This document shows, in pieces, positions 8,786 through 18,047 of a stretch of DNA of 64,000 bases (position 1 is its first letter; each line of letters opens with the position of its first letter). A program made the position numbers and the translations under genes. The stretch is from Pseudomonas entomophila (GTDB lineage: Bacteria; Pseudomonadota; Gammaproteobacteria; Pseudomonadales; Pseudomonadaceae). Under the pieces are notes generated by a model, which did not search any database, was not told the origin of the DNA, and was given only the letters and a program-made list of their open reading frames with translations. Location: the NCBI RefSeq assembly GCF_018417595.1, contig NZ_CP070982.1, positions 5,197,001 to 5,261,000 of the forward strand, written 5' to 3'.

Positions 8786-11700
8786 TTAACGGGCGCGCAC
8801 TACCATCTCTCCCTGGCTCTCGCCAGTAGCCTGCAGGTTCGGCCGGTACATCGACTCCACCTGCGGCGGCGGGATGCGATAACTGCCCGGCGTCACCGCA
8901 CGGGCCAGGTACAGCAGGTGGGTGGTGCCGTAGCTGTCGAGCTTGAGTGCCGCCACATAACGATCGTCACGGTACTCCTGGTGCACCACGCTGGCGTTCT
9001 GCATCGACTCGCGCCACTGCTTCACCGCACTGCTGGCGTTATCCAGGCTGGCGGCGCTCTGGGCGAGGTTCTGGTTCTCCAGCTCCAGGCCCGCCGGCAG
9101 CAGGTCCACCACCAGCGCGTCCGGCACCTGGCTTTGCGCCTTGAGCGCCAGGTGCACCAGCACCAGGTCGCCACTGCGCAGGCTGCGCACATCCAGCGCC
9201 TGGCCATTCATGCCCAGGTACTCACGGCGGATCTCCAGGCCATTACCACTGGCGACCGGAGCCTGGCGCGGGTAGCCGGACAAGGTCAGTTGCTGGTACA
9301 GCGTGTCGCCACCCTCGTTCTGCACGGTCAGCGGTGAGGCAAGCAGCGGGCCTTCGAGCTTCATGCCCGAGTCGTTGTTGCTGAACTCGCGGATCTCTCC
9401 AGCGCTGTTCAGGCGTGCTTTCCAGTTACCTTCTGGCTTGCCCAGCAAGCCGCGGCCGGCGAGGAACAGCGCGTTGCGCTCCTGGGTGGACAGCCAGCGG
9501 TTGGCGGCCAGTTCGTCGGACAGCGCGAACAGGCGCTGGTCGACCTGGTTGCCCGCCAGGTTGTTCTCCTGCAACAGCGCCAGGATCAATGCCTGGTCAC
9601 GCACGGCGCTGCCGTAATCAGCCATCCAGCCCTTGCTGCGGCTAATCGCCAGGCCAGCCTTGAGCACGTCCTGCGAACGCTGCTTGTCGCCCATCTTGTC
9701 CAGCGCCACCGCCAGCTGCACCAGCGGCAGGCCGGAGCGGGCATCGGCGCGACGATCGTACAGGCTGCGCAGGGCACCCAGCGGCGCCTGTTGGCTGCGC
9801 GCCAGCACCAGGCCGGCGTAGGCTTGTACGGCGAAGCGGGTGTGGTCGGCGTCCTGGCTGTAATCGACTTCGATCAGGTTGCGCTCCTGCACATAACGCA
9901 GCAGGCGCTCCGTGGCCTTCTTCAGCACTTCGGCCGGCACGCCGTAACCTTGCTCGCGAGCCCGCAGCAGGAAGTCGGTGACATAGGCGGTCAACCAGTA
10001 CTCTTCCTCGCTGTCGGAACTCCACAGGCCGAAGCTGCCGTTGTAGCGCTGCATCCCCAGCAGGTGCTCGATGCCCATCTCGATCTTGCGCTTGCGTACA
10101 TCGGCCGGCTCGCCCTTGATGCCCAGGCGCTTGAGGCTGTCGGCATCAGCGTACAGCGAGGGGTACAGGCCGCTGGTGGTCTGCTCCAGGCAACCGTAGG
10201 GGTAGGCCTCGAGGGCGCGGATCTGCTCGGCCAGGTTCAGCGGTGGGCGGCTCGACAGCGCCAGGGTGGCTTCCAGGCCGGCCGGCTCGAACTCGGCCAG
10301 GTCGCTCTCAGGCAGGTTCCAGGGTTGGTCCTTCAACGCCACGCGGTAGTGCTTGAGCATCGCCGGGTAGGCTGGGCGAACACCCAGGGTCCACTCGCGC
10401 TCGAAGGTGTTGGCCGGCTCGCCCGGCAGCTGCAGGCCATTGACCTGCACGCGCACCTTGCCCTGGCCCAGGCCACCCTGGGCCTGTACCGGGATCATCA
10501 GCGTAGTGCGCTGACCTTCGCCGAGGGCGACGTTCTGCTGGGCGCCACCGACCAGGCTCAGTTGGCCTTCGGTGACCAGTTGCACGGTCAGCTGTTGGGC
10601 GCGGCCGGACAGGTTGGCCAGGTCCAGCGCCAGGCTGGTGCGGTCGCCGCCGGCGAGGAAACGCGGTGCCGACAGTTCGGCGATCAGCGGTGCGGCGACC
10701 ACGGTCTTGCCTTCGGCCACACCGAAGTGCTCCTCGGTCCAGGCCTGCGCCATCAGGCGCAGTTCGCCGTTGAAGTCAGGGATGTCGACCGTGGCCTGGC
10801 CCTCACCCTTGTCATCGAGCGTCACCGGCACGCTCTGCTGGGCGACGATGGTCACCGTGGTGTTCGGGCGCTTGCCGCCCTTGGCCATGGCGGCGTCACC
10901 GCCGAAGGCAAGGCTGGCCAGGCGGCCCTGGCCGGCTTCGATCAGCTGGCCGTAGATGTCCAGTTGGTCGGCGCCATAGGCCTTGCGCCCAAACAGGCTG
11001 GCGAACGGATCGGGGGTCTTGAAATCGGTGATGTTGAGGATGCCTACGTCCACCGCAGACAGCAGCACATGGATCTGCTTCGGCACGCTGCCATCAGCGT
11101 TGGCGGCCTTGAACTTCACCGTCAACGGCTGCTTGGGGCGCATCTTCTCCGGCGCCTGCAAGCTGACCGCGAGCTTGCGCTCGGCGCGGTCCAGCGGCAG
11201 GTGCAGCACGCCCACGGCGCGCTTGGGGGTGGCGTTGGCCTTGCGCTCGCCGGGGCGGATCACCAGGGCGCTGATGTACAGGTCGTGGCGCGCCCATTTC
11301 TTGTCCAGCTCGACGTCGAAGGTCTTGCCCTCGGCCGGCACATCGATTTCCTGCCACCACAGCGGGCCATCGGCGGACTCGATCATCAGGTAGCCACTGC
11401 CGGCGGCCGGCGGGGTGACCGTGACCTTGGCGGTGGCGCCATCCTTATAAGCGGGTTTGTCCAGGGCGATCTTCACCTGGTCGGGGCGCACGGCGCCGCC
11501 TTCGGCGTTGTCCTGGGCACGATAGCCGGCCCAGAAGCGCTCGCTGGAGACCAGACCGGTCTGCGGGTCTTCCACTTCGACACGGTACGGGCCCCACTCC
11601 ACCTGGAAGTTCAGCTTGGCGGTGGAGCCGGCCTTCACGCTGACGGTTTCCTCGGCCTGGGTGAGGAATTTCTCGTTGTAGTTGTAGCTCCAGCCGTCGC

Positions 11701-13690
11701 TCTGCGAGTAGTTCCAGTAGTAATCGCGGCGTTCGCGAATCAGGCGCACCTTCAGGTTGTTGGCGGCGAGTTTCTTGCCGTTGCGGTCGGCGACCAGGAA
11801 CTCGAATTCCACCGGGCCATCGCCATCGGTTTCCTCGCCATCGAACAGGCCACGCAGCCCAGGCAGGCGCTCGGCTGGCCAGATGGGCTGCTCCAGGCGA
11901 CGGGTGATCGGCCGGCCACCGGACTCCTGCAGGCTGGCCTGTACGGTCAGTTGCAGCGGCGAACGGGCCTCGGCCCAGCGGCTTTCGATCTCGATGCGGG
12001 CCTTGCCGTTCTGGTCCAGGGTGACTTCGTCCAGCTCAAGGTCCTGGTTCAGGTCGGTCTCGGTGACCGCGCCGAACTGGTAGCCTGGCAGCGCCTTCAC
12101 CGCTTCGCGCAGCGGGCGTACGTAGGCCTGGCCGCTCAGGCGGTTGCCGGCGGCGGGCGCGCCATAAAGGTAGCGGCCGTTGACCTGGATGGACGCGGTC
12201 TCGTCCGGCGACAGCGGCGTGCTGCTGCCCTTGAGCTCCAGCGCCAGGCGCTCGGGGAGGAAGTCCTCGACGAGGAATTCGTAGACCTGCTTGCGACCAC
12301 CGCCCAGGTCCAGCAGCAGTTGCCAGCGGCCGGTCGGTGCCTCGGTGGCCAATTGCAGTTGATACTGGAACAAGCCGTTCTGGTCGGCCTCCCAGACGAA
12401 TTTACGACTGACCTGCTCGTCCGGGCGACGGACTTCCACGCTGACCGGCTGGGCCTTGACCGGCTTGCCGTCCTGGTCACGCAGCAGGCCGTTGAGCAGT
12501 ACGGTCTCGCCCGGGCGATAGAGGTCACGCGGGCCGAAGATGAAGAACTGCAGCGGATTGGCCTGAGGGCCGGTGATATCGAACTCGGCCAGGTCCAGGG
12601 CGGCGGTGTTCAGGCGCAGCAAGGTGGTGTGCACGCCTTGGGTGGCGATCAGGGTGTCGGCCTTCGGGGTGATGGGTAGCTGGGCGTGGCCATCGCCGTC
12701 GGTCTTGGCCTGGGCCAGCAGCTTGCCCTTGTCGTCGTGCAGTTCGAGGGTGACGTCCTTGAGCGCCTTGCCGCCTTCCAGGGCCTGGGTGAACACGTCC
12801 AGGCGATCGCGGTAGCGGTGGGCGGACACGCCGATGTCGCTGAGGGTGAACAGGGTGGCCGGCTGCGAGTAGTCGTAGGTGCCCGAGGCGCGCATCACTG
12901 CCAGGTACACGCCCGGCTCCTGCAGCGGCTTGATCCCGGCGATCGGCAGCAGCACGGTCTCGCGGGTATTGCGCGCGGGGTTGAGGTCGAAGCGGCCGCT
13001 GTAGACCAGTTCGGCCATGTCCAGGGTTTCCTTGGACTGGTAGTAGTACAGGCTGGAGTTGCGGCCCCAGTTGACCAGAAAGGTCGAGAGCATGTCCGGC
13101 TTGATGCGGAAGAACTCGACATCGACCTTGTCGACGTTCAGGGCGATCACCGGCAGGCCTTCGGCCAGGCGCGTGGGCAACAGCGAGCCACGGCTGGCGA
13201 AGCCCACGGTGGGCTGCATGTCGCGGGTTTCGAAACGGCTGACCGACTCGGCTTCCAACGCGTTGCCGTTGACCGACAGCAGGCCCTTGTCGATGGTCAG
13301 GACCATCTTGCGCTGCGGCTCCAGGTGGCGCAGGCGCAGTTCCATCTGATTGTCGGAGAGTTCCCAGGCACCGTCGACCTTGCCTTTGACGGTGTCCACC
13401 AGGTGCAACTTGGCGGCGAAGTCCTGGCTGGCGTCCAACGGCGCGGAGACGCTGACCGACAGGGTACTGGCGCCATCGAGCTGGACTTCCGAGACGTCCA
13501 GCACAGTCAACTCGCGGCCGGCGTAGCGCTTGGCGAGCGCGGCTGGGTCTTCGCGCTTGGCCGCTTTGGTCTCGCTGGGCGCGACGGCGGTGGCCGCATC
13601 GGCAGGCGCTGGTGGCTTGTCCTGCGTGGAGGAATCACAGGCACTGAGCAGGGCCAGCGCGCAGGCCAGCAACAATCCTTTGTTGAGCAT
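8786..13690 (-). CDS. yfhM: Bacterial alpha-2-macroglobulin lipoprotein (YfhM/ECAM type)
   Basis: 1634 residues, the usual length for the long bacterial alpha-2-macroglobulins. The N-terminus MLNKGLLLACALALLSACDS is a lipoprotein signal with lipobox L-S-A-C. The internal thioester motif GCLEQ is intact, with Cys1167 and Gln1170 placed for the Cys-Gln thioester, so the protein should trap proteases covalently. The following region (about 1180-1450) looks like the alpha/alpha-toroid complement domain. Family role: periplasmic protease inhibitor working with PBP1C to protect a damaged envelope. The start at 13690 is preferred to 13732 because the signal peptide begins there. Note the minus-strand order: yfhM lies upstream of pbpC with a divergent small gene between. 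Confidence 0.92.
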   Translation of the reverse strand: MLNKGLLLACALALLSACDSSTQDKPPAPADAATAVAPSETKAAKREDPAALAKRYAGRELTVLDVSEVQLDGASTLSVSVSAPLDASQDFAAKLHLVDTVKGKVDGAWELSDNQMELRLRHLEPQRKMVLTIDKGLLSVNGNALEAESVSRFETRDMQPTVGFASRGSLLPTRLAEGLPVIALNVDKVDVEFFRIKPDMLSTFLVNWGRNSSLYYYQSKETLDMAELVYSGRFDLNPARNTRETVLLPIAGIKPLQEPGVYLAVMRASGTYDYSQPATLFTLSDIGVSAHRYRDRLDVFTQALEGGKALKDVTLELHDDKGKLLAQAKTDGDGHAQLPITPKADTLIATQGVHTTLLRLNTAALDLAEFDITGPQANPLQFFIFGPRDLYRPGETVLLNGLLRDQDGKPVKAQPVSVEVRRPDEQVSRKFVWEADQNGLFQYQLQLATEAPTGRWQLLLDLGGGRKQVYEFLVEDFLPERLALELKGSSTPLSPDETASIQVNGRYLYGAPAAGNRLSGQAYVRPLREAVKALPGYQFGAVTETDLNQDLELDEVTLDQNGKARIEIESRWAEARSPLQLTVQASLQESGGRPITRRLEQPIWPAERLPGLRGLFDGEETDGDGPVEFEFLVADRNGKKLAANNLKVRLIRERRDYYWNYSQSDGWSYNYNEKFLTQAEETVSVKAGSTAKLNFQVEWGPYRVEVEDPQTGLVSSERFWAGYRAQDNAEGGAVRPDQVKIALDKPAYKDGATAKVTVTPPAAGSGYLMIESADGPLWWQEIDVPAEGKTFDVELDKKWARHDLYISALVIRPGERKANATPKRAVGVLHLPLDRAERKLAVSLQAPEKMRPKQPLTVKFKAANADGSVPKQIHVLLSAVDVGILNITDFKTPDPFASLFGRKAYGADQLDIYGQLIEAGQGRLASLAFGGDAAMAKGGKRPNTTVTIVAQQSVPVTLDDKGEGQATVDIPDFNGELRLMAQAWTEEHFGVAEGKTVVAAPLIAELSAPRFLAGGDRTSLALDLANLSGRAQQLTVQLVTEGQLSLVGGAQQNVALGEGQRTTLMIPVQAQGGLGQGKVRVQVNGLQLPGEPANTFEREWTLGVRPAYPAMLKHYRVALKDQPWNLPESDLAEFEPAGLEATLALSSRPPLNLAEQIRALEAYPYGCLEQTTSGLYPSLYADADSLKRLGIKGEPADVRKRKIEMGIEHLLGMQRYNGSFGLWSSDSEEEYWLTAYVTDFLLRAREQGYGVPAEVLKKATERLLRYVQERNLIEVDYSQDADHTRFAVQAYAGLVLARSQQAPLGALRSLYDRRADARSGLPLVQLAVALDKMGDKQRSQDVLKAGLAISRSKGWMADYGSAVRDQALILALLQENNLAGNQVDQRLFALSDELAANRWLSTQERNALFLAGRGLLGKPEGNWKARLNSAGEIREFSNNDSGMKLEGPLLASPLTVQNEGGDTLYQQLTLSGYPRQAPVASGNGLEIRREYLGMNGQALDVRSLRSGDLVLVHLALKAQSQVPDALVVDLLPAGLELENQNLAQSAASLDNASSAVKQWRESMQNASVVHQEYRDDRYVAALKLDSYGTTHLLYLARAVTPGSYRIPPPQVESMYRPNLQATGESQGEMVVRAR

Positions 13691-13857
13691 TTGAGAGAGA
13701 ACTCTTCGGCAGCATGTACGTGAGGGCAGCAACTATAGCGTAACGGCGGCTGGCTTACCTGCTGAAGAGTGGCAAGTGCGACGCTGTTCGCGCAGATGGA
13801 TGACCCGACCGCTACAATGGCGCCGCGAATGAGGCACCTCTTCCCTCCGGAGCACGC

Positions 13858-15192
13858 ATGCGTTCACTGTCCACCGCCTGGCGCGACCAGCCCACCCACC
13901 GCAAGGTCTGGGGCCTGGCCGTGCCGATGATCCTCTCCAACATCTCGTTGTCCCTGGTGGCCCTGGTCGACACTGCGGTGATCGGCCACTTGCCACACGC
14001 CCACCAACTGGGCGCGGTGGCGGTCGGCGCCACCCTGTTCGCCTTCATCGTCGGGCCGATGGGCTTCCTGCGCATGGGCTCCACCGGTTTCGCCGCCCAG
14101 GCCGCCGGTCGCGCCGATGGTGCCGCGCTGCGCCAGGTGCTGGTGCAGGGGCTGTTGCTCGCGCTCGGCTTTGCCCTGTTGATCGGTCTACTGGCCCTGC
14201 CCTTCAGTCAGCTGGCACTGAAGGGCATGCAACCCAGCGAAGCCCTGCTCGCCTCCACCGAAACCTTCTTCCACACCCGCCTGCTCGGCCTGCCGGCAGC
14301 ACTGGCCTGCTATGCCCTGGTGGGTTGGTTCCTGGGCACACAGAATGCCCGGGCGCCCTTGGCGATCATGCTCACTACCACCGTGCTCAACATCGCCCTG
14401 AACCTGTGGTTCGTGCTCGGCCTGGATTGGGGCGTGCTCGGCTCGGCACGGGCCTCGGTGATCGCCGAGTGGAGCGCCGCCCTGCTAGGCCTGGCCCTTA
14501 CTCGCCCGGCGCTGCGCGCTCATCCCGGGCGCATCGTCTGGGCCGCCTTGAAACGCTGGCAAGCCTGGCGCCCCCTGCTGGCAGTAAACCGCGACATCTT
14601 CCTGCGCAGCCTGGCGTTGCAGCTGGTGTTCCTGTTGCTGACCGTGCAGGGCGCGCGGCTGGGCGAGGCCACCGTGGCCGCCAACGCGCTGTTGCTCAAC
14701 GGCCTGCTGCTGACCGCCTACGCCCTCGATGGTCTGGCCCACGCGGTCGAAGCCCTGTGCGGCCACGCCATCGGCGCCCGCGACCGTGCAGCCTTGCAGC
14801 GCACATTGGTGGTCGCGGGTGGCTGGTCGTTGATTGCCAGCCTGGGCTTCGCGGTGCTGTTCATGCTGGGCGGGCACTTGTTCGTCGATTTGCAGACCGA
14901 CATCGCCAGCGTGCGCGAGGCGGCGTATCCGTACCTGCCCTACCTGGCGGTGTTGCCGTTGATCGCGGTGTGGAGTTATCTGCTCGATGGGCTGTTCATC
15001 GGCGCGACGCGGGCGCGGGAAATGCGCAATGGGATGCTGGTGTCGGTGTTGATTGCGCTGCCCGTGGCGTTTGCCCTGCGCGGGTTCGGCAACCATGGGT
15101 TGTGGTTGGCGTTTCTGCTGTTCATGGCGTTGCGGGGGGGGACGCTGGGGTGGGTGGGGTGGCGGTTGATACTCAAGAAACAGTGGGTGTGA
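13858..15192 (+). CDS. dinF: MATE-family efflux transporter (DinF type)
   Basis: 444 residues with about twelve hydrophobic segments. The N-terminus RKVWGLAVPMILSNISLSLV and LVDTAVIGHLPHAHQLGAVA are the conserved first-helix and D-T-x-x-x-G-x-L region of DinF-type MATE proteins; ALDGLAHAVEALCGHAIGAR is the second-half counterpart. It exports cationic or toxic compounds with Na+ or H+ coupling at the inner membrane; substrates are not set by the sequence. CTCCGGAG precedes the ATG by a few bases. The last 60 bases show a string of G runs, but the frame stays intact to the stop. Confidence 0.88.
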   Translation: MRSLSTAWRDQPTHRKVWGLAVPMILSNISLSLVALVDTAVIGHLPHAHQLGAVAVGATLFAFIVGPMGFLRMGSTGFAAQAAGRADGAALRQVLVQGLLLALGFALLIGLLALPFSQLALKGMQPSEALLASTETFFHTRLLGLPAALACYALVGWFLGTQNARAPLAIMLTTTVLNIALNLWFVLGLDWGVLGSARASVIAEWSAALLGLALTRPALRAHPGRIVWAALKRWQAWRPLLAVNRDIFLRSLALQLVFLLLTVQGARLGEATVAANALLLNGLLLTAYALDGLAHAVEALCGHAIGARDRAALQRTLVVAGGWSLIASLGFAVLFMLGGHLFVDLQTDIASVREAAYPYLPYLAVLPLIAVWSYLLDGLFIGATRAREMRNGMLVSVLIALPVAFALRGFGNHGLWLAFLLFMALRGGTLGWVGWRLILKKQWV

Positions 15193-15299
15193 CAGCAAAC
15201 AAATTGCAAAGTATATGGTCTTGACTCAGGCGTCCAAGCAGCTCAAAACACAAGTCCCACGGAGGGGATCACCTATAAAACATTGAGCAAGGAGCCAAT

Positions 15300-15686
15300 A
15301 TGTACCCTCCTCCAGCCCCGCCAGGGGTATCCATTACCAGTAATCTTCACTCGGCCAGCATGGAAAGGCACTACTTCAAAAACGGTGGCACTGCATTTCT
15401 CTTGTCGTGGTTCTATAACAAAGTACGCAACCGCGGCGAATGGGATTACAAGCAACACGGCCGCAAGTACGAAGCATTCGGAAATTTCAATTACGGTGCC
15501 TGCGGGACGGCAGCTGGAATTTCGCCGGAGATCTTGTTGAGAGGGGCGGGATGGGCCCAAGGACGTGCGGGAACAAGTAATCCAGCTTTCGGTAACTGGT
15601 GGGGAGACGTGCCGTATGGCGATGACCCGAGCGACCAAGAGTGGATCAAGGCAGGTATCGACTATGCAAAATCGTTGGGCTATTAA
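15300..15686 (+). CDS. Stand-alone polymorphic toxin type 44 (Ntox44) domain
   Basis: 128 residues, essentially only the toxin module. WFYNKVRNRGEWDYKQ (37-52), FGNFNYG (60-66), AAGISPEILLRGAGWAQ (71-87) and YGDDPSDQEWIKAGIDY (106-122) match the Ntox44 domain normally found at the C-terminus of large polymorphic toxins. Ntox44 was predicted computationally to be a toxic enzyme; its chemistry is not established to my knowledge. There is no signal peptide, PAAR, Rhs or other delivery part here. AAGGAG lies seven bases before the ATG. The base composition of this cassette is lower in GC than its surroundings, which suggests transfer. Its last 23 bases overlap the next gene, the likely immunity partner. 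Confidence 0.78.
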   Translation: MYPPPAPPGVSITSNLHSASMERHYFKNGGTAFLLSWFYNKVRNRGEWDYKQHGRKYEAFGNFNYGACGTAAGISPEILLRGAGWAQGRAGTSNPAFGNWWGDVPYGDDPSDQEWIKAGIDYAKSLGY

Positions 15687-16098
15687 ATGGCTGACTGGAG
15701 TGTTGGGGGGGATAGCACTGGCACAAGCCTTATGGATCTGGATCCCGGCAGCAGAACCACAGTTGGACAAGCTGATCCGCTCAACCCCCATCGGCATCCA
15801 TAGCGCCATCTATGAAGTACTGAGCGATAGCGGTGGCGCGACAGTACCGCTAACTTACCTGTATTTCATTGCCAACCGCCAAGAAAACGAGCATCTGATA
15901 CTCGAAGACCTTCGGAAACGCTCTCCTTTCCTGATCACAAAGCAAGCAGACGCCGTTAAAAAAGTCGAGGGTCTGAAAGTACAAGCTCGAACCCATGACA
16001 CCGTCTATCGATACACGAGCGTTGCTCTTCTCAAGGAAGGTGGGAAAGCGCTTCCCGTCATCATTGAGCTCACCGCAACAGACGATACTGAGCACTAA
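15664..16098 (+). CDS. Putative membrane-anchored immunity partner of the Ntox44 protein
   Basis: 144 residues. The N-terminus (about 5-28, WAIKWLTGVLGGIALAQALW) is one hydrophobic helix. The remaining 115 residues are soluble (YFIANRQENEHLILEDLRKR, later ALLKEGGKALPVIIELTATD) and by a positive-inside guess lie in the periplasm. It is not a family I recognise. The call as immunity protein rests on position: it overlaps the toxin 3' end by 23 bases and shares its lower GC (26 of 60 bases in 15841-15900). Earlier in-frame ATGs at 15565, 15616 and 15622 lie inside the toxin frame; 15664 is chosen because it places the helix at the N-terminus. If right, the toxin would act in the periplasm. Confidence 0.6.
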   Translation: MQNRWAIKWLTGVLGGIALAQALWIWIPAAEPQLDKLIRSTPIGIHSAIYEVLSDSGGATVPLTYLYFIANRQENEHLILEDLRKRSPFLITKQADAVKKVEGLKVQARTHDTVYRYTSVALLKEGGKALPVIIELTATDDTEH

Positions 16099-16099
16099 A

Positions 16100-16128
16100 A
16101 CAAAGGGGCCGCTATGCGGCCCCTTTGT
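16100..16128. terminator. Bidirectional terminator hairpin
   Basis: A 13-bp perfect stem ACAAAGGGGCCGC / GCGGCCCCTTTGT with loop TAT lies between the convergent immunity-like gene and speA. Confidence 0.85.
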
Positions 16129-16133
16129 TCAAA

Positions 16134-18047
<1,914 letters not shown>

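Follow-up and report, generated by a model that had tools for sequence, protein, structure and literature searches.

A gene for a lone Ntox44 toxin domain lies between dinF and speA in Pseudomonas entomophila, and its end overlaps the start of a second small gene. What is this two-gene cassette for, how might so small a toxin reach another cell, and where in that cell would it act? The window, i.e. the whole stretch of DNA that was analyzed, comprises 64,000 nucleotides and corresponds to positions 5,197,001–5,261,000 of a 5.96-Mb single-contig genome. The cassette and its surroundings contain the following features, numbered within the window.

13858–15192, + strand: MATE-family (dinF-like) gene, the upstream flank (Pfam MatE, 2.3e-37)
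15289–15294, + strand: AAGGAG, resembling a ribosome-binding site, 5 bases upstream of the toxin ATG (read from the sequence)
15300–15686, + strand: stand-alone Ntox44 toxin gene, 128 amino acids, all-alpha (Pfam PF15607)
15664–15686, + strand: 23-nt overlap of toxin and partner genes, the partner ATG lying within the toxin Tyr122-Ala123 codons
15664–16098, + strand: putative immunity gene, 144 amino acids, N-terminal membrane helix and beta-rich domain (the family found 3' of the toxin)
16096–16132, + strand: hairpin where the convergent genes for the partner and SpeA meet (folding energy −26.3 kcal/mol, z = −6.98)
16134–18047, − strand: speA, arginine decarboxylase, the downstream flank (Pfam Orn_Arg_deC_N and two Arg_decarb domains)

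The toxin reading frame begins with the ATG at 15300 and ends with a TAA stop at 15684–15686. Its product matches Ntox44 with E = 7.5e-18 and 65.3 bits against a cut-off of 24, which confirms the lone 128-residue module reported in the first-pass annotation, made from the sequence alone. This is the sole Pfam match of the cassette at E ≤ 1, so the ColM domain is also unmatched, and an NCBIfam scan of the toxin gave no match at the same threshold. The protein is the Ntox44 domain plus a short leader and little else. The receptor/translocation N-terminus of a colicin-like S-type bacteriocin is absent, and inspection by eye reveals neither a signal peptide nor a carrier region. The partner frame opens at the ATG at 15664 and its stop ends at 16098. 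Scans of its 144 residues against Pfam, NCBIfam and PADLOC gave no match at E ≤ 1, in keeping with the earlier description of an overlapping one-helix protein of no known family. An anti-phage role is unsupported, PADLOC giving no match. A scan for sigma-70 promoters found none at the cassette.

The domains of the two flanking genes bear out the reported position between dinF and speA, and the lower GC content that had been noted is also seen. Across 15250–16249, which three 500-base steps cover, the GC content is 0.54, compared with 0.61–0.71 per step further out on both sides. The cassette replaces a short MatE–speA spacer; the site is empty in the relatives G025 and G003, where approximately 80 bases separate the genes. 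The nearest named locus, in Pseudomonas sp. UFMG81, has a toxin that is 93% identical and a SpeA that is 98% identical. In nine of nine loci from close relatives (L131–L139, one of them a MAG labeled Paucimonas) the cassette stands beside speA, and dinF lies upstream in eight, L131 ending before dinF. In other clades different genes, their names recognized by eye, adjoin the cassette, which has therefore settled at several sites. No near match to the locus was found among plasmid records. The claimed closing terminator survives in part. The hairpin at 16096–16132 is strong, with 14 contiguous pairs, and is probably a two-way terminator, but it is missing from the consensus terminator scan, it also faces speA, and the empty dinF–speA site L213 shows a comparable GC-rich inverted repeat. 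It is therefore not diagnostic of the cassette. On its other side the dinF-like gene is adjoined by a bacterial alpha-2-macroglobulin gene (8786–13732, minus strand; Pfam bMG and A2M domains).

The AlphaFold model of the toxin is a small bundle composed of helices only, with a mean pLDDT of 91.8. No solved structure matched this model. The toxin is the reference row of a 70-member alignment (A3), so all 19 invariant residues are present in it. Across the 70 sequences the invariant polar residues include R43, K51, Q87 and D108, and N62, D109, D112 and Q113 are conserved at 90% or more, while no histidine or cysteine reaches 90%. The sequence contains the motifs D49-x-K51, G61-N62-xxx-G66 and D108-xxx-D112. 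In the available portion of PMC3482391 Ntox44 is described as an all-alpha fold with DxK, GNxxxG and DxxxD motifs; the window toxin has both the fold and the motifs.

Two samples were used to examine pairing of the genes. The named loci are the best 80 of 93 toxin-domain loci, kept from contigs of GTDB representatives. Their query was an alignment of toxins already paired with the partner, so this sample favors paired loci; the partner profile was built from genus members. The genus sample consists of 398 Pseudomonas genomes in which all 110 Ntox44 matches were read. Some genomes are common to both samples, which are therefore not independent.

In 72 of the best 80 of 93 named loci the partner family lies directly downstream of the toxin. 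The conserved adjacency that had been proposed as a check is thus present, and it supports the suggestion of a minimal toxin–immunity unit. The 72 paired loci from these best 80 of 93 divide into 61 with a stand-alone toxin, eight with a long N-terminal extension and three that are broken. Carriers among the best 80 of 93 include Pseudomonas, Rahnella, Cedecea, Erwinia, Lelliottia, Enterobacter, Pantoea, Burkholderia and Shewanella. The eight of the best 80 of 93 without the partner come from Thiotrichaceae, Thioploca, Elusimicrobia, Thiobacillus, Bacillota, Hydrogenophaga, Burkholderiales and an unnamed proteobacterium. No family in Pfam or NCBIfam is common to the 66 members of the partner alignment (A4); three Pfam families each matched one member with E = 0.003–0.007, and were taken as chance.

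In the genus sample the partner family occurs in 62 of 398 genomes (67 matches) and Ntox44 in 87 (110 matches). An Ntox44 domain, in some cases from a frame-broken toxin, immediately precedes 46 of the 67 partner matches. The 64 other Ntox44 matches comprise six of the window type and 58 of a PAAR type. Four of the six have a diverged partner, one has a partial partner, and one is a partnerless 67-codon fragment. Altogether 50 of the 52 window-type toxins in the 398 genomes are paired with the partner family, and the two exceptions are at fragmentary loci. The first-pass annotation had held that homologs of the second gene without the toxin would speak against the pair. Such cases do occur (21 of 67 partner matches), but 10 of the 21 retain a broken piece of toxin upstream, and the toxins themselves are almost always paired. 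Loss of the toxin was called on condition that a profile match to a remnant attained E = 0.01, with E-values calculated for a small fixed search size; the remaining 11 of the 21 were left uncalled. In the genus sample the partner can thus be found without the toxin, but an intact toxin of the window type is not found without the partner, an asymmetry that is typical of immunity genes. At five loci (L084, L094, L110, L111 and L112) the partner frame opens with a stretch that by eye resembles the toxin leader, the profile test for a remnant being below threshold. There it looks as if the body of the toxin was deleted and the immunity kept, the weapon being lost.

Of the 72 paired named loci (from the best 80 of 93), 66 have an overlap of exactly 23 nt, the start of the partner being placed by rule at the first Met near the start of the domain. 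The spelling of the toxin codons at the partner start does not depend on this rule, and it is xATG in 69 of these 72 loci (again from the best 80 of 93). In each of the 66 Tyr-Ala cases the Tyr at the overlap is encoded by TAT; elsewhere in the domain there are 229 TAT and 211 TAC codons. Given the xATG and the bias to TAT, the conservation of Tyr122-Ala123 may partly reflect the start codon of the partner. The conserved overlap and start codon together point to translational coupling. Comparison of the window with L131 gives dN = 0.030 and dS = 0.523 for the toxin, and dN = 0.132 and dS = 0.691 for the partner. In all eight further pairs computed, pN/pS is higher for the partner than for the toxin. 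By these substitution rates the toxin gene is under purifying selection. A conserved toxin with a faster-evolving partner fits a toxin–immunity pair, and not a decaying relic.

The possibility raised earlier of an orphan left from a larger toxin is contradicted by these data. The stand-alone form is itself conserved (61 of the 72 paired loci from the best 80 of 93, in several orders, Enterobacterales among them) and its toxin is under purifying selection, so the orphan relic was rejected. A broader version would make the module a spare tip lacking its own delivery, recombined onto bacteriocin or PAAR genes or kept for immunity only. Modules of this kind exist in polymorphic toxin systems, according to the available part of PMC7790226. 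The fused forms with the same partner family at eight of the 72 named loci (from the best 80 of 93) and the partner-only loci of the genus sample lean the same way. Yet the prevalence of the stand-alone form and the selection on the toxin also weigh against a spare tip. Moreover, the source genome contains no other Ntox44 and no match to the fusion module of L154 (the sole module searched), so no acceptor gene is seen there. We therefore regard the spare tip as quite unlikely.

How might a 128-residue toxin be delivered? The source genome has TssB, taken as a marker of the type VI secretion system (T6SS). It also has 11 matches to PF05954 at 10 places, none of them within the window; PF05954 is the family of VgrG and phage tail proteins, and some of the matches may be phage tail genes. 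TssB is found in 354 of the 398 genus genomes, the 44 TssB-negative genomes being obtained by subtraction. It is present in 40 of 40 counted carriers of the stand-alone form and in 314 of the 358 others (Fisher p = 0.014, uncorrected for kinship). In this count 47 genomes were taken as paired, three of them (G026, G094 and G385) being added by hand, and frame-broken toxins were grouped with the stand-alone ones. TssB is also present in five of seven genomes with fused forms, in 33 of 38 with only PAAR-type Ntox44, and in 16 of 18 further carriers, of which 17 are outside Pseudomonas.

In four of the best 80 of 93 loci the cassette has an hcp gene (PF05638) as its direct neighbor, with both on the same strand. 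In Rahnella rivi (L184) the toxin ATG follows the hcp stop by 11 nt, and in Cedecea colo (L189) hcp lies 18 nt behind the partner. The separations in P. congelans (L186) and Lelliottia nimipressuralis (L199) are 29 nt and 21 nt respectively. Two of the four genes are close kin, being 89% identical. The Lelliottia hcp (L199:5701–6195), which lies behind the cassette, is broken by an in-frame stop. At the fused loci L154 and L160 hcp lies 3.1 and 4.3 kb away. In 74 of the best 80 of 93 loci no hcp, VgrG, PAAR or TssB was found within up to 5 kb per side (less at contig ends), and no hcp, vgrG or PAAR gene is seen beside the cassette in the window. A tblastn search with eight VgrG-family proteins, TssB and three PAAR stretches of the source genome gave no match in the best 80 of 93 loci. 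The linkage to VgrG or PAAR that was to be looked for is therefore not seen, but linkage to hcp exists in the four loci. That adjacency and the presence of TssB in every counted stand-alone carrier favor the earlier suggestion of T6SS cargo. Since the protein is small, some relatives have hcp as a neighbor and the genome has a T6SS, delivery by the T6SS as Hcp cargo would be the likeliest route for the stand-alone toxin. Points against it are the rarity of hcp neighbors, the kinship of two of the four hcp genes, the broken Lelliottia hcp, and the carriers lacking TssB (five of 38 genomes with only PAAR-type Ntox44 and two of 18 further carriers).

Small T6SS cargo effectors carried by Hcp are those of the Tse/Tae type. 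The cassette resembles them in having a small stand-alone toxin followed by an immunity protein located in the envelope (here by prediction), and in the hcp gene that adjoins it in some relatives. It is probably an effector–immunity pair of the T6SS type, with an unnamed immunity family. Release by lysis or export by another route, serving kin competition or a response to phage, seems very unlikely to us. It would account for the 74 of the best 80 of 93 loci in which no T6SS gene was found nearby, and the domain has relatives that carry colicin-like N-termini; the lack of a PADLOC match neither suggests nor excludes a defense role. However, the 128-residue protein has no signal peptide or carrier region apparent by eye, and the hcp neighbors occur in four genera, or three if the closely related hcp genes are counted once.

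The structure of the partner bears on where the toxin acts. Its model (mean pLDDT 88.0) has a single hydrophobic helix at residues 4–25. None of the 65 distinct family members tested has another 19-residue window that scores above 1.6 by Kyte-Doolittle. When the Lys and Arg residues preceding the helix are compared with those among the 15 residues that follow it, the preceding side has more in 41 of the 65, fewer in eight and the same number in 16. The positive-inside signal is moderate, and the protein is probably oriented with its N-terminus in and its C-terminus out. The periplasm-facing partner proposed in the first-pass annotation is thus favored, as a predicted topology. A comparable arrangement is known: in the available part of PMC11148199 a T6SS immunity protein has one N-terminal helix and its bulk in the periplasm, and its cognate toxin is toxic in the periplasm.

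A second family of this shape accompanies the PAAR-type toxins. A small one-helix protein is encoded behind 30 of 30 long-type Ntox44 genes (L032–L061; alignment A5), and three of the four long-type toxins scanned have a PAAR motif. The choice of the protein encoded behind the PAAR-type toxins was based on its length, position and hydrophobicity. In the genus sample this second family stands behind 55 of the 58 PAAR-type toxins, the other three (L271, L272 and L292) having neither family, and in the 50 of the 58 loci that were scored there is no partner of the window family. Its positive-inside signal is found in 27 of 30 members, with one opposite and two ties. Three members compared with Pfam and 20 compared with NCBIfam gave no match. 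This second one-helix family is the probable immunity of PAAR-Ntox44 T6SS effectors. The toxin domains of the two types are related (hhalign 97%), but kinship of the two immunity families was not detected (hhalign 19.6%). Common ancestry of the two was thus not found, although in both a T comes after a GG-rich stretch that is located about equally far from the helix. The PAAR-type effectors therefore resemble the cassette in having a homologous toxin domain with a one-helix protein directly behind. They differ in that the window toxin lacks the PAAR part, its domain is shorter and without the PAAR-type insert, and its immunity protein is of an apparently unrelated family.

Ntox44 is also found as the C-terminal tip on a colicin-like N-terminus, followed by the same immunity family as in the window, at L141, L142, L146, L147, L154, L160, L165 and L183. 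Further such fusions are L072, L073, L075, L079, L080 and L089, some contigs being shared with the other set. In most fusions the N-terminal module is common, at 23–40% identity, to two colicin pore-formers and five Pyocin_S proteins, as assigned by Pfam. L142, L146 and L183 reach these colicin relatives only weakly, and L141 and L089 only via each other and L183. Scans of seven of 20 loci found Pyocin_S in five of the five non-pore relatives and in neither of the two pore-formers, and four of the five Pyocin_S relatives carry a Col-Pyo DNase domain. By comparison, none of the eight Ntox44 frames scanned has Pyocin_S at E ≤ 1; the eight consist of six clear fusions, the shorter frame L074 and the probably stand-alone L086. 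The fusions thus share their N-terminal module with Pseudomonas colicin-like S-type bacteriocins of the Colicin-pore and Pyocin_S/DNase kinds, but have Ntox44 as the killing domain, and Pyocin_S was not found. From the shared module and the N-termini, which we take to be TonB-box-like, the fusions would be bacteriocins, possibly of an undescribed class.

Taken together, the topology of the partner, the second one-helix family and the colicin-like fusions without Pyocin_S suggest that Ntox44 acts in the periplasm. This is contrary to its published label. In the portions of the papers that were available, Ntox44 is a predicted RNase in PMC3482391, the prediction is repeated in PMC12165300, PMC6312309 and PMC13288982, and the domain is termed a characterized nuclease domain in PMC9635880 and PMC7790226. 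The RNase or ribonuclease label also appears in available passages of effector surveys, a transcriptome study and metagenomic profiling. In the parts of the Ntox44 literature covered we found no paper placing the domain in the periplasm or describing the partner family. If these labels were correct, the toxin would be a cytoplasmic RNase effector, and the membrane helix of an immunity protein whose domain faces the cytoplasm would be incidental. We think this unlikely, despite its standing in print. It is hard to reconcile with two apparently unrelated one-helix immunity families that both have N-in signals, and with colicin-like fusions that lack Pyocin_S. Furthermore, the main text of a 2023 review of nucleic-acid toxins (PMC9990079) does not mention Ntox44.

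If the toxin acts in the periplasm, a first guess at its target, by analogy, would be the cell wall or a precursor. This is because the layout of the partner matches that of Cmi, PmiB and BmiB and of the anchored T6SS immunity protein. The former are anchored immunity proteins against colicin M relatives that cut lipid II (available part of PMC5277000), and the toxin opposed by the latter resembles colicin M (available part of PMC11148199). In those portions both the colicin M-like bacteriocins and the ColM-like T6SS effector have a helix-anchored immunity protein with a periplasmic domain, as predicted here. They differ from the cassette in that the window toxin has no ColM match and no bacteriocin carrier. 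A membrane lipid is another possible target.

The reading of the cassette that we favor, and consider probable on the genomic comparisons, is that of an antibacterial effector–immunity pair whose toxin is probably T6SS cargo and would act in the periplasm. We infer that translation of the partner would be coupled to that of the toxin, starting inside its last codons. The N-terminal helix of the partner would then anchor it in the inner membrane and leave the beta-rich domain in the periplasm, where that domain would bind toxin delivered by sister cells and so protect against its presumed toxicity. More surprising than the cassette itself is what its relatives imply for Ntox44 as an entire family. 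With chances a little better than even, Ntox44 would be a class of periplasmic envelope toxin with an unrecognized fold, used interchangeably as Hcp cargo, as a PAAR-fused effector and as a colicin-like tip, and countered each time by a membrane-anchored periplasmic immunity protein. If it does act in the periplasm, the RNase labels for Ntox44 are wrong, and there is an envelope toxin whose chemistry is still to be solved. With 128 and 144 residues, the two proteins of the pair are convenient objects for testing, and the second belongs to a family for which neither Pfam nor NCBIfam has a model.

At three loci of the PAAR type (L276, L280 and L282) a second immunity gene of that type, together with an extra piece of toxin domain, lies by the first pair, giving tandem spare modules.
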